DNA of 64,000 bases from Methanonatronarchaeales archaeon. Lineage in GTDB: Archaea > Halobacteriota > Methanonatronarchaeia > JAANXF01. The stretch covers positions 1-64,000 of the forward strand of contig JAANXF010000013.1 in the NCBI GenBank assembly GCA_018263395.1. Reading direction: 5' to 3'. The notes under the pieces are model-generated. The model had not been told where the DNA came from. It ran no database searches and saw only the letters and a program-made list of their open reading frames with translations. This document shows, piece by piece, positions 40,013 through 43,943 of this stretch. The position numbers and the translations under genes are program-made. Position 1 is the first letter of the stretch, and each line of letters starts with the position of its first letter.

Positions 40013-40771
40013 ATGGAGAATGGCGACTTCGTGAGGGTTTCGTTTACCGGTAGAGTGAAGGACGGACCCGTTTTCGAGACAACCGACGAGGAGGTGGCCG
40101 AGGAGGAGGGAATCTTCGACGAGGACAAGGAGTACGGCCCCAGGGTCGTGGTCCTGGGCCAGAACACCCTTCTCCCCGGACTGGAGAAGGCCATTCTGGA
40201 GGCGGAGGTGGAGGACTCCGGCGAGGCAGAGATTCCTCCCGAGGAGGCGTTCGGTGAGCGCAGGGAGGCGGCCGTCATCTCCTTATCGAAGCGGGAGTAC
40301 GACTCCAGGTTCGACCAGCCAGCGAGGCGAGGCACCCGGGTCGAGATGGAGGGAAACACCGGCACGATAATATCCACTGTCGGGGGACACGTCAGGATCG
40401 ACTTCAACCACCCCCTCGCCGGGGAGACCGTGGTTTACGAGTACGAGGTTCTCGAGGAGGTGGAGGACCCCGTCGAAAAGGTGGAGTCCGCTCTGGAAAA
40501 CTCCACAGGCAGCCCGGGCAGCGAGTTCGACATCGAGTTCGAGGACGGAGCCCTGGAGATTCGGCCCCCTATGCCGGAGTTTCCAAAACAGGGATGGCTG
40601 CTCGGCAAGGGCCGCATGGCGGACACCATTCTCTCTGCCATCGACGTGGACGAGGTCAGGTTCGTCGAGTCGTTCCGGAGCCCCGAGGCTTCCGGAGATG
40701 CCGAGGAGACGGTGGATGAGCCCGCCGAACCCGAGGCAGAGGCCCCCGACGAGGGCCCCGGAGAGGAATAG
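40013..40771 (+). CDS. FKBP-type peptidyl-prolyl isomerase (SlyD-like)
   Basis: NGDFVRVSFTGRVKDGPVFETT, LLPGLEKAIL, IPPEEAFGER, DFNHPLAGETVVYEYEVLE. Confidence 0.93.
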   Translation: MENGDFVRVSFTGRVKDGPVFETTDEEVAEEEGIFDEDKEYGPRVVVLGQNTLLPGLEKAILEAEVEDSGEAEIPPEEAFGERREAAVISLSKREYDSRFDQPARRGTRVEMEGNTGTIISTVGGHVRIDFNHPLAGETVVYEYEVLEEVEDPVEKVESALENSTGSPGSEFDIEFEDGALEIRPPMPEFPKQGWLLGKGRMADTILSAIDVDEVRFVESFRSPEASGDAEETVDEPAEPEAEAPDEGPGEE

Positions 40772-40775
40772 TCCC

Positions 40776-41213
40776 CTACTCTCCCCGCAGCTTCACGACC
40801 TGGAGGTCGATACCCAGCGGGCAGTCCGATTTGGTTGAACCAACGACGTCCTCGATTACCAGCTTCCGGCCGTCGACGCCGCCAGGGTGACAGATGGTCC
40901 ACACCTCGCAGTCGTCCGTGCACCCGTTCGGCGGAGAGACGGAAACCCTGGAGCCCCTGACGGCCTTCTTTGACGGGACCGCCGCCTCGATCGCGGTCTC
41001 CTCGACCTCAACTGCGTTCACACCGCCCTCGTGCAGTGGGCACTTCTGAACCCTTCCGTCCCTCAGGCCGACCACCCTGTACCGCCTGCCCGCCACGAGG
41101 GCTCCGCACGTCCTGCGCAGGGAACAAGAATAGCACTGCTCCTGTGTGCCCTCGAAAACGAACTCCTCACCCTCTCTCGCGTTCAGCTTTCCTATGAGAG
41201 TAACCCTGGACAT
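40776..41213 (-). CDS. UPF0179-family protein
   Basis: VTLIGKLNAREGEEFVFEGTQEQCYSCSLRRTCGALVAGRRYRVVGLRDGRVQKCPLHEGGV. Confidence 0.88.
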   Translation of the reverse strand: MSRVTLIGKLNAREGEEFVFEGTQEQCYSCSLRRTCGALVAGRRYRVVGLRDGRVQKCPLHEGGVNAVEVEETAIEAAVPSKKAVRGSRVSVSPPNGCTDDCEVWTICHPGGVDGRKLVIEDVVGSTKSDCPLGIDLQVVKLRGE

Positions 41214-42248
41214 CTATATCACACCGGTATCCTCGGCGACCCTCTCGGCCGCCTCCCTCGTTATTCCATCGCTCCCCAATATTGTATACCTCCCGGGCCG
41301 GACGGAGTGGGCGGTGGTCAGGGCATCCAAGAGGACGTCCCCGTCGACCCCGAGTCCCTCGGCGTCCAGCGGGGCTCCCAGTGTCTCCAGGGCGTCCCTG
41401 ATCGTTTCCCAGTCACCGTTGTGGAGGTACATCGTCAGGATCGAGCCCACCCCGCACTGCTCGCCGTGAAGCGCGGCGCCGGGGGCTATGGAATCCAGCA
41501 CGTGACTGAACATGTGCTCCGCCCCGCTCGCAGGCCTCGACGACCCGGCTATCGACATGGCGACACCGCTGCTTATCAATCCCTTCATCACGACCTTGAC
41601 TGATTCCTCCAGCCCGGGCCGAATCGAGGACGCGTTCTCGACCATTATGGTGGCCGTCATCTCGGACAGCGTCGAGGCGTAACCGCTCCTGTAATCACCC
41701 CTGAGGCGCTCAGCCAGGCTCCAGTCCAGCACAGCCGTCTTGTTGGACACTATGTCCGCGCAGCCGGAACACATCAGCCTCTCCGGCGTGTCCGCTATGA
41801 CGGACGTGTCCGCCACGACCGCGAGAGGCGCGTCTGCCGAGACGCTCTTCGACGAACCGCCTCCCCGCAGCGAGGCCCTGTTGGACGCCACGCCGTCGTG
41901 TGAAGCGGCGGTCGGGACGCTGAGGAACGGTACCCCGGTGCGGCTGGCACCGAGCTTCGCGGTGTCGATGGAGCGGCCGCCGCCGACGCCCACCAAGAAG
42001 TCGGCGTCCAGCCCGGAGACGGCCTCCACCGTCGCCTCGTCCACGCTGTCCGAAACCTCGACCTCTACCGAGAAGCCCCCCTCCGAAAGCACCTCCGCGA
42101 CCCGGTCGCCGGCGACGCGACGGGTAGTGGGTCCGGTAACGACGCCCGCCGATCCCTCCAGCCCTATGTCCAGCGCCACGGAGGCCACCCGGTCGAGCGC
42201 GTCCCTGCCTACTACGACGCTTCGGGGAAGCTGCATCTCGCGGGTCAC
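41214..42248 (-). CDS. egsA: sn-glycerol-1-phosphate dehydrogenase
   Basis: MQLPRSVVVGRDAL, VGVGGGRSIDTAKLGASRTGVPFLSVPTAASHDGVASNRASL, ASGAEHMFSHVLD, LHGEQCGVGSIL. Confidence 0.95.
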   Translation of the reverse strand: MTREMQLPRSVVVGRDALDRVASVALDIGLEGSAGVVTGPTTRRVAGDRVAEVLSEGGFSVEVEVSDSVDEATVEAVSGLDADFLVGVGGGRSIDTAKLGASRTGVPFLSVPTAASHDGVASNRASLRGGGSSKSVSADAPLAVVADTSVIADTPERLMCSGCADIVSNKTAVLDWSLAERLRGDYRSGYASTLSEMTATIMVENASSIRPGLEESVKVVMKGLISSGVAMSIAGSSRPASGAEHMFSHVLDSIAPGAALHGEQCGVGSILTMYLHNGDWETIRDALETLGAPLDAEGLGVDGDVLLDALTTAHSVRPGRYTILGSDGITREAAERVAEDTGVI

Positions 42249-42385
42249 CGTAATCGTTTAAAAAGCTACCTCTGAATCCTTATAGGTAGCGCATCCCCCC
42301 GTATGGAGGTCTCGAACGGCGGCCACCTCCCCGCCGGGGGCCTCCCCGTCAACCTTATAGCCCTCACGGACCACTCTACGCAGGT

Positions 42386-42644
42386 GGGGTCGTGGCCTAG
42401 TCCGGAAGGGCGACGGGCTCCAGCGGTACGCACCGCTTCGAAGAAGCGGGTGCTAAACCGGCCTGCCCACGCGGCAGCCCGGGATGATGAAGAACGGGTA
42501 AACCGAGCCGGGTCAGCGCAACCCGAGCGATGACGACCCGTTGGAGCACTGAACCGGTATCGGTTCAGTCCGTAGAAACCGTCAGGTTTCGAACTCTGAA
42601 CCGGAGACACCCGTTAATCGTGGGTTCAAATCCCATCGACCCCA
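42386..42644 (+). tRNA. tRNA-Trp (CCA) with intron 42424-42608
   Basis: Acceptor GGGGTCG/CGACCCC; anticodon arm ACGGG-CTCCAG|A-CCCGT; BHB with central helix CTCC/GGAG, 3-nt bulges AGC and ACA, outer helix GGT/ACC. Confidence 0.95.
42484..42552 (+). ncRNA. Box C/D guide RNA inside the tRNA-Trp intron, predicted to target tRNA-Trp positions 34 and 39
   Basis: C box ATGATGA 42484-42490, D'-like CCGA 42503-42506, C'-like CGATGAC about 42529-42534, D box CTGA 42549-42552; guides TGGAGC and AACGGGT complementary to exons 1 and 2. Confidence 0.88.
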
Positions 42645-43079
42645 TGCCCAAAAAACGCCTGAAACCTCCGTGCTGAGGAACGGATCCACTCCGTAGCTCG
42701 GCCTCCCGTAGAACCGTGTCCCCTGGATTCAGCTATACTCCACTTCGCCTACCGTCCCCCAGAGTGTCTCCACGTCCCTCCACGGGCTCCGTGGCCTTTC
42801 CGTCCCTGACCGTAAGTCTGGGCACACCTCGCCCCCTCTCCGGTTCACGAGGCCCGCCGTGCGGAGGCCCCCGGAGGCGCCCAACCGGCTCCGCCCCCTC
42901 CCCGCGCACCGTCAACCAGCGGACAGGAGCGGGGTACCCCGGAATCCGGGGCCTCCTACGGCTTCGAGGGCCACCCCGATGGGCCGACCCGGCGGGGTCG
43001 CCGGCCCCGCGACCGGACGCGTCCTCGTGCAGATGGACCGGGGCCAGATATAATGTGACGGGCTCCTAATCAGTCGGCA

Positions 43080-43943
43080 GTGATTGTGGCTGATAACCTC
43101 GGCAAGGCCTACGACGGCTTCGCCGCGGTAGACGGCGTATCCTTCTCGGTGGAGGAGGGTGAGATTTTCGGCATCGTTGGGCCGAACGGAGCCGGAAAGA
43201 CCACCACGCTGAAGATGCTCGCGGGCCTCCTCGAGCCGTCCTCGGGCGGGGCGGAGGTCGCCGGCCTGGACATTTCCGACCCCGAGATGAGGCGCCACAT
43301 AGGCTTTCTGCCCGAGGAGACCCCTCTCTACGAGAACATGACGCCCGCCTCCTACCTCGGCTTCTTCGCCGACCTGTACGGCGTCCCTCCCTCCGTGGCG
43401 GCCGAACGGGCAGAGGACCTGCTGGACTCGCTGGACCTCGAGCACAGGGACCGCCGACTGGGCGACATGTCGAAGGGGATGAAGCAGAAGGTCGCCATCG
43501 CCCGCTCCCTCATAAACGACCCGGAAGTACTGATATACGACGAGCCGACGAGCGGACTGGACCCGGTGACGACCAAGGAGGTCCACCGGTTCGTGAGGGA
43601 CCTCGGCGACGGGGGGAGGTCCGTGGTCTTCAGTGCCCACAACCTGTTCCACGTCGAGCACCTGAGCGACCGGGTCGCCGTGATGCGGGAAGGACGGGTG
43701 GCGGCGGAGGACACCGTCGAGGGGTTAAGGGACAGTTTTGGCCAAACCCAGTACCGGGTACACGTGACCGTGGAGCTGCCGGGAGCCGAGCCCGGGGACG
43801 GCGACTACGTACTGGTGGTCGAGGACATGGAGGGCGTGGAGGCCGTCAGGAGCGAGGCGGAGTCCCTCGGAGGGAGGGTGGCGGACATACGGACGATGGA
43901 ACAGTCCCTCGAGGACATCTTCCTCTCGATAATCGAGAGATGA
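43080..43943 (+). CDS. ABC transporter ATP-binding protein
   Basis: VGPNGAGKTTTLKMLAGLL, LGDMSKGMKQKVAIARSL, LIYDEPTSGLDP. Confidence 0.95.
   Translation: MIVADNLGKAYDGFAAVDGVSFSVEEGEIFGIVGPNGAGKTTTLKMLAGLLEPSSGGAEVAGLDISDPEMRRHIGFLPEETPLYENMTPASYLGFFADLYGVPPSVAAERAEDLLDSLDLEHRDRRLGDMSKGMKQKVAIARSLINDPEVLIYDEPTSGLDPVTTKEVHRFVRDLGDGGRSVVFSAHNLFHVEHLSDRVAVMREGRVAAEDTVEGLRDSFGQTQYRVHVTVELPGAEPGDGDYVLVVEDMEGVEAVRSEAESLGGRVADIRTMEQSLEDIFLSIIER

Follow-up and report, generated by a model that had tools for sequence, protein, structure and literature searches.

A tRNA-Trp intron of a Methanonatronarchaeales archaeon as a predicted box C/D guide for positions 34 and 39 of its own tRNA, with a dispersed palindromic repeat beside the guide core

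The tRNA-Trp intron described here, found in a stretch of 64,000 nt from a Methanonatronarchaeales archaeon (the window), is very probably a box C/D guide RNA aimed at C34 and C39 of its own tRNA. We assign this reading, including the proposed mechanism as a whole, a probability of about 0.92. The intron belongs to the established intronic guides of euryarchaeal pre-tRNA-Trp, and the guide itself is ordinary.

The gene was located by direct reading and with ARAGORN, which both give a tRNA-Trp(CCA) gene at 42386–42644 with an intron of 185 nt (42424–42608) between positions 37 and 38. With introns allowed, ARAGORN reports tRNA-Trp(cca) with the 185-nt intron, and without this option the gene is missed. 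An earlier note on this DNA had described an hBHBh motif with the core CTCC/GGAG, the bulges AG^C and AC^A (^ marks the splice site) and exon junctions at 42423/42424 and 42608/42609. Direct reading confirms each of these elements and all other coordinates of the note to the base. Exon 1 ends with G42423 (G37) and exon 2 begins with A42609 (A38). The features of the locus are as follows.

42355–42359, + strand: TATA-like TTATA, a possible archaeal promoter about 31 nt 5′ of the tRNA (by reading)
42386–42423, + strand: tRNA-Trp exon 1, positions 1–37, anticodon CCA at 42420–42422 (ARAGORN with intron, direct reading)
42418–42421, + strand: 5′ strand of the BHB helix, CTCC, partner 42603–42606 (direct reading; folds with the cloverleaf under constraint)
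42424–42608, + strand: intron, 185 nt, at 37/38 (BHB motif, ARAGORN)
42427–42483, + strand: copy of a two-hairpin palindromic repeat, between the splice site and box C (blastn and repeat model R2; family in this genome only)
42484–42490, + strand: box C, ATGATGA (TGATGA; overlapped by ATGATGAAGA) (sR3 alignment)
42493–42499, + strand: D′ guide AACGGGT, N+5 nucleotide G42498 to C39 (C42610) (direct reading, pairing analysis)
42503–42506, + strand: box D′, CCGA (sR3 alignment; covaries with C′)
42507–42528, + strand: small hairpin in the D′–C′ spacer (fold; similar D′–C′ hairpin in genomes G001, G002 and others)
42531–42536, + strand: box C′, TGACGA (sR3 alignment; covaries with D′)
42538–42547, + strand: D guide CCGTTGGAGC, N+5 nucleotide G42544 to C34 (C42420) (10 bp with the precursor, 7 bp with the mature tRNA)
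42549–42552, + strand: box D, CTGA (sR3 alignment)
42553–42602, + strand: second insertion relative to G001 and G002, a hairpin CGGTTCAG...CTGAACCG with inner GAAACC/GGTTTC, from box D to the BHB (fold, comparison)
42603–42606, + strand: 3′ strand of the BHB helix, GGAG (direct reading, constrained fold)
42609–42644, + strand: tRNA-Trp exon 2, position 38 to the 3′ end (direct reading, ARAGORN)

The neighbouring genes (40013–43943) encode an FKBP-type isomerase (40013–40771, +), a UPF0179 protein (40776–41213, −), a glycerol-1-phosphate dehydrogenase (41214–42248, −; NF002022 above cut-off) and an ABC transporter ATPase (43080–43943, +), and nothing was found that ties them to the tRNA.

Both guides hold as the earlier note had assigned them. 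TGGAGC (42542–42547) precedes the D box at 42549–42552 and sets G42544, the N+5 nucleotide, on C42420, which is C34; AACGGGT (42493–42499) precedes CCGA at 42503–42506 and sets G42498 on C42610, which is C39. The Rfam search that the note had proposed gave a match to sR3 (RF01133) at 42480–42554 with 47.3 bits (gathering cut-off 41, E 2e-10), and in a stricter whole-genome sR3 search the intron scores 35.9 bits (E 3.3e-9). Against sR-tMet (RF02163), which is likewise a C/D guide for a tRNA wobble C34 but is free-standing and aimed at tRNA-Met, the score is 26.7 bits with a cut-off of 50. Shuffling the intron 200,000 times at constant composition gave the D guide with its box alone 106 times, the D′ guide with its box alone 37 times and both together in no case. 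Box C (RUGAUGA, 42484–42490) and box D (CUGA, 42549–42552) contain the tandem G.A core. Judged by a sequence test, UGACGA/CCGA should be able to form a kink-loop: its two G.A pairs and its G-C pair are preserved, and its 3b.3n pair is C.C. A possible terminal stem CCGG/CCGG (42479–42482 with 42554–42557) competes with the flanking hairpins in the fold.

Sequences similar to sR3 were observed in 59 of 100 relatives and, in a sample of 397 genomes from the whole phylum, in 230. The covariation analysis covers 116 distinct tRNA-Trp introns whose boxes could be parsed; L077, with unparsed boxes that read by eye as CCGA with UGACGA, is outside this set. The N+5 nucleotide of the D guide lies opposite C34 in all 116 introns. 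That of the D′ guide lies opposite position 39, also in all 116, as G-C (90), A-U (21) or G-U (5), and at the level of sequence the D′ guide tracks the change between C39 and U39. The earlier note had regarded C39 as unusual, but it proves to be the usual base: positions 38–39 are AC in 89 introns and AT in 26, and one is misparsed (L093, with the 3′ splice site misplaced by ARAGORN and CC at 38–39). The 26 introns with U39 are all haloarchaeal, while C39 is present in every non-halophile intron sampled and also in Halorutilus-like halophiles. We therefore rejected C39 as an anomaly, since C is the norm among the sampled introns.

The guide of tRNA-Trp is always intronic, and in Haloferax volcanii it modifies positions 34 and 39; Cm34 and Um39 of this tRNA are the experimental precedent for intronic guide machinery (PMC2584109, PMC7994747). 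The system was described in 2001 (Clouet d'Orval 2001, content via PMC7994747 and PMC2584109). This published picture matches our homologue survey, and the window intron is therefore another case of the known guide type. The earlier note had read it in the same way, and three lines of evidence bear this out: the match to Rfam, the homologues of equal layout in most genomes of the phylum and the guide–target covariation. With sR3, the Haloferax volcanii pre-tRNA-Trp and Pyrococcus sR50 (name from PMC7994747), it has the intron at 37/38, the BHB, guides for 34 and 39, the D guide sequence and the box order in common. In contrast to these, it carries C.C instead of U.U in the C′/D′ loop, a D′ pairing of 7 bp that does not cross the splice junction and a dispersed repeat before box C; its 185 nt compare with 103 nt in Haloferax (PMC2584109). 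The haloarchaeal tRNA-Trp introns (L128–L157) share the intronic guide for 34 and 39, and many have C.C in C′/D′ like the window intron. However, nearly all of them carry U39 and they start with AGG, whereas the window has C39, and in the C/D motif most have C.C where the window intron has U.U.

The D guide pairs with GCTCCAG^CGG, that is with exon 1 and intron positions +1 to +3, forming 10 bp in the precursor and 7 bp in the mature tRNA (9–11 bp and 7–9 bp, respectively, over the 116 introns). Intron start and guide vary together: CGG/CCG was found 85 times, AGG/CCU 29 times, UGG/CCA once and UGG/CCG by wobble once. The last three pairs of the D guide involve intron bases, and modification of C34 is therefore expected to take place on the unspliced RNA. 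This covariation pattern in the sequences supports modification ahead of splicing, which has likewise been inferred previously (PMC2584109). In most relatives the D′ guide spans the junction by pairing with AG^ACCCG, whereas that of the window intron is confined to exon 2 and forms 7 bp, fewer than the usual 8. The window intron is the only one of the 116 that ends in AC.

The tRNA-Trp gene folds more stably than dinucleotide shuffles (z −5.0). Folding of the pre-tRNA, which the earlier note had suggested as a check, yielded an unconstrained optimum of −122.9 kcal/mol in which the D guide pairs with exon 1 and the BHB is not formed. BHB and cloverleaf form together under constraint at −116.3 kcal/mol, a cost of about 6.6 kcal/mol. 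As the fold favours the guide–exon pairing over the BHB, splicing would require a rearrangement or a bound protein. In these models, guide pairing and splicing would compete for CUCC, and this fits a model of guiding followed by splicing.

Genes for fibrillarin and Nop5 are adjacent on contig C15 of the same genome (G000:C15:32956–34138; L163, L164, L169), with a copy of the repeat between them; fibrillarin apparently starts at a GTG within the end of this repeat. A two-domain EndA and RtcB are also present in this genome. A search for L7Ae (PF01248) gave no match in the assembly, which is 78% complete; this is probably an assembly gap. In the mechanism that we propose, L7Ae would bind the C/D kink-turn and the C′/D′ kink-loop, and Nop5 and fibrillarin would join. 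Pairing of the D guide with exon 1 and the first three intron bases would lead to 2′-O-methylation of C34, either in cis by the intron or in trans by the intron of another molecule, and pairing of the D′ guide with exon 2 would lead to methylation of C39. EndA would then cut the BHB, and RtcB would join the exons and probably circularise the intron.

Position 3n of a kink-turn is the second base of D′, and it lies opposite 3b, the base at the fourth position of C′. With CCGA and UGACGA, the window intron has C.C at this site. Some of the 116 introns came from scans that fixed one box (neither fixed both), and the 3n.3b frequencies are therefore not population estimates: with the D′ base first, we counted U.U 62, U.G 14, C.G 17, C.C 20, U-A 1, G-C 1 and A.C 1. 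Mixed combinations of U and C did not occur in the 116 introns (Fisher p 1.6e-19 on the U/C subset, with shared ancestry ignored). When 85,462 species, each represented by a single genome, were scanned with C′ set to TGACGA and D′ left free, eight tRNA-Trp introns were obtained, and the D′ box of every one is CCGA. Conversely, 25 introns were found in 397 genomes when D′ was set to CCGA, and their C′ box is UGACGA or UGAGGA, never UGAUGA. The earlier note had singled out the D′ box as non-canonical; judged by this covariation, CCGA is a compensated state, matched by the change in C′, and we rejected a decayed D′ box. Going by genus labels and record names, C.C is carried by the window's genome and by G001 of the same class, by Methanosarcina KYL-1, Methanimicrococcus, Methanosaeta UBA114 and several haloarchaeal families, while G002 has U.U. 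Within the haloarchaeal genus g78, both U.U (L136) and C.C (L138) occur. In the C/D motif, only U.U or C.C was found across the introns. Two haloarchaeal tRNA-Trp introns (L131, L132) carry the rare D′ boxes CGGA and CAGA facing C′ UGACGA, which gives G-C and A.C at 3n/3b. A likely free-standing C/D RNA similar to sR-tMet was seen on contig C22 of the window's genome (L002, 1006–1057, − strand), with the D guide TATGAGTG before CTGA, fitting C34 of elongator tRNA-Met. As its C′/D′ pair is U.U, both U.U and C.C are in use in the window's genome.

In Kt-7 variants, C at 3b permits ion-induced folding, which C-G or G-C prevents (PMC4382518), and U:U is the preferred pair in the kink-turns of archaeal box C/D RNAs, which are L7Ae-dependent (PMC5689011). 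The folding rule has until now come from engineered Kt-7 variants (PMC4382518, PMC5689011), and carrying it over to C′/D′ loops is an assumption. Natural homologues with U.U, C.G or C.C at a fixed site offer a panel for the 3b.3n effect and for L7Ae-dependent versus ion-dependent folding. Boxes such as CCGA/UGACGA should not be discarded as degenerate in searches for archaeal C/D RNAs. A literature search for UGACGA boxes in haloarchaea gave nothing relevant, which is no proof that they are unpublished.

The earlier note had also stressed the length of 185 nt and the extra stems. The intron is indeed long, but it lies inside the range of 61–211 nt in the sampled set and is no anomaly; its extra 5′ stems correspond to a copy of a genome-specific repeat. 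The length comes from this repeat, which lies between splice site and box C and explains part of the extra nucleotides, and from a second hairpin between box D and the BHB; neither lies within the guide core. In a blastn search with the tRNA gene, the first hairpin was found at three other loci of the genome (92–96% over 23–30 nt). A model of the two-hairpin unit that includes the intron copy (R1) gave 21 matches in the genome, which is 78% complete, and none in two other genomes of the class; 13 of the matches, the intron copy and 12 others, reach E ≤ 1.1e-6. Because R1 contained the intron copy, a second model (R2) was built from the twelve other copies only. R2 detects 42427–42484 at 37.3 bits (E 4.7e-7), compared to 13 bits for the next best match in the window, and detects no copy in 38 loci of other archaea. 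Copies in the genome (L168–L188) include C8:49888–50002, C15:33561–33619, C12:17878–17933, C7:14436–14495, C19:35182–35370, C13:8978–9095, C18:56207–56266 and C9:19013–19075, among others. On contig C12 (L161, 1437–1544), a tRNA-Arg(CCT) with a predicted 35-nt intron has a repeat copy immediately upstream on the other strand. A tandem array stands, by eye, just upstream of an apparent ribosomal protein L5.

The unit of 57–64 nt, ACCGCACC...GTGCTCGAACAGG...CCTGTGA, often occurs head-to-tail. In the tRNA-Trp intron it comes after the conserved CGG of the intron start and before box C; in G002, CGGT is directly followed by ATGATGA, which resembles an empty site of the repeat. Two tandem units lie in frame within a DNA polymerase B ORF, in one clear case only, and this insert is flanked by query residues 490 and 538, both of which align at chain residue 721 of a solved homologue. 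Rickettsia palindromic elements and MITE/REP are likewise short dispersed palindromic units, some of them in frame in protein genes (PMC10969869), whereas the unit described here is archaeal, has two hairpins and is likened to them by form, not by sequence. It marks where the guide tolerates an insertion and may be an archaeal palindromic element that enters both protein and RNA genes. Tentatively, and at slightly less than even odds, we propose two things jointly. One is that a lineage-specific element, inserted precisely between splice site and box C and in frame in DNA polymerase B, is an archaeal parallel of the Rickettsia palindromic elements and leaves functional RNA cores untouched. The other is that the two bases of 3b.3n evolve together throughout Euryarchaeota (U.U, U.G, C.G, C.C), and that as a result guides with C.C may fold more easily with ions alone, in the absence of L7Ae.

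One alternative to two active guides is that only the D guide (C34) acts, with the D′ side serving as a structural kink-loop for RNP assembly and C39 left unmethylated. In P. furiosus, a C39 species, methylation of C39 in tRNA-Trp was predicted and was not detected (PMC7668247), and Cm39 is therefore the weaker of the two predicted methylations compared to Cm34; the short D′ pairing, which unlike that of most relatives leaves the junction uncrossed, points in the same direction. On the other hand, the invariant fit of the D′ N+5 nucleotide to position 39, its change from G to A in most introns in which C39 has become U39, and Um39 in Haloferax (PMC2584109) all speak for a working D′ guide. We consider the single-guide explanation unlikely, though a serious possibility, and favour guides for both positions.

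It is also conceivable that the repeat-invaded intron is decaying, so that it is still spliced but has lost its guide function. Insertions that flank the core on both sides, the unique intron end AC and the shorter D′ pairing would agree with decay. We regard decay as very improbable, since the four boxes and both guides with their N+5 positions are all preserved, neither insertion falls within the core and the D′/C′ change to C.C is compensated. A chance likeness of intron-specific hairpins at 42427–42483 to hairpins elsewhere in a GC-rich genome seems a shade less probable still. The second hairpin has diverged from the family consensus in the R2 alignment, which such a likeness could account for, but the 37.3 bits come from a model of 12 other copies, the three loci that match the first hairpin are unrelated, and the repeat is absent from all 38 archaeal loci.

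For the second insertion (42553–42602), no other copy was found in the same genome, and neither the genome searches nor R2 support it as a further copy of the repeat. An H/ACA guide at 42553–42608 was rejected on reading, as its ACA would straddle the splice site and the upper stem has no visible kink-turn. The D box lies within a near-perfect palindrome, ACTGAACCGGTATCGGTTCAGT (42548–42569), and CTGAACCGG recurs at 42596–42604, which could give the middle segment two alternative pairing partners. This arrangement might allow a conformational switch between masking of the D box and formation of the 3′ hairpin.
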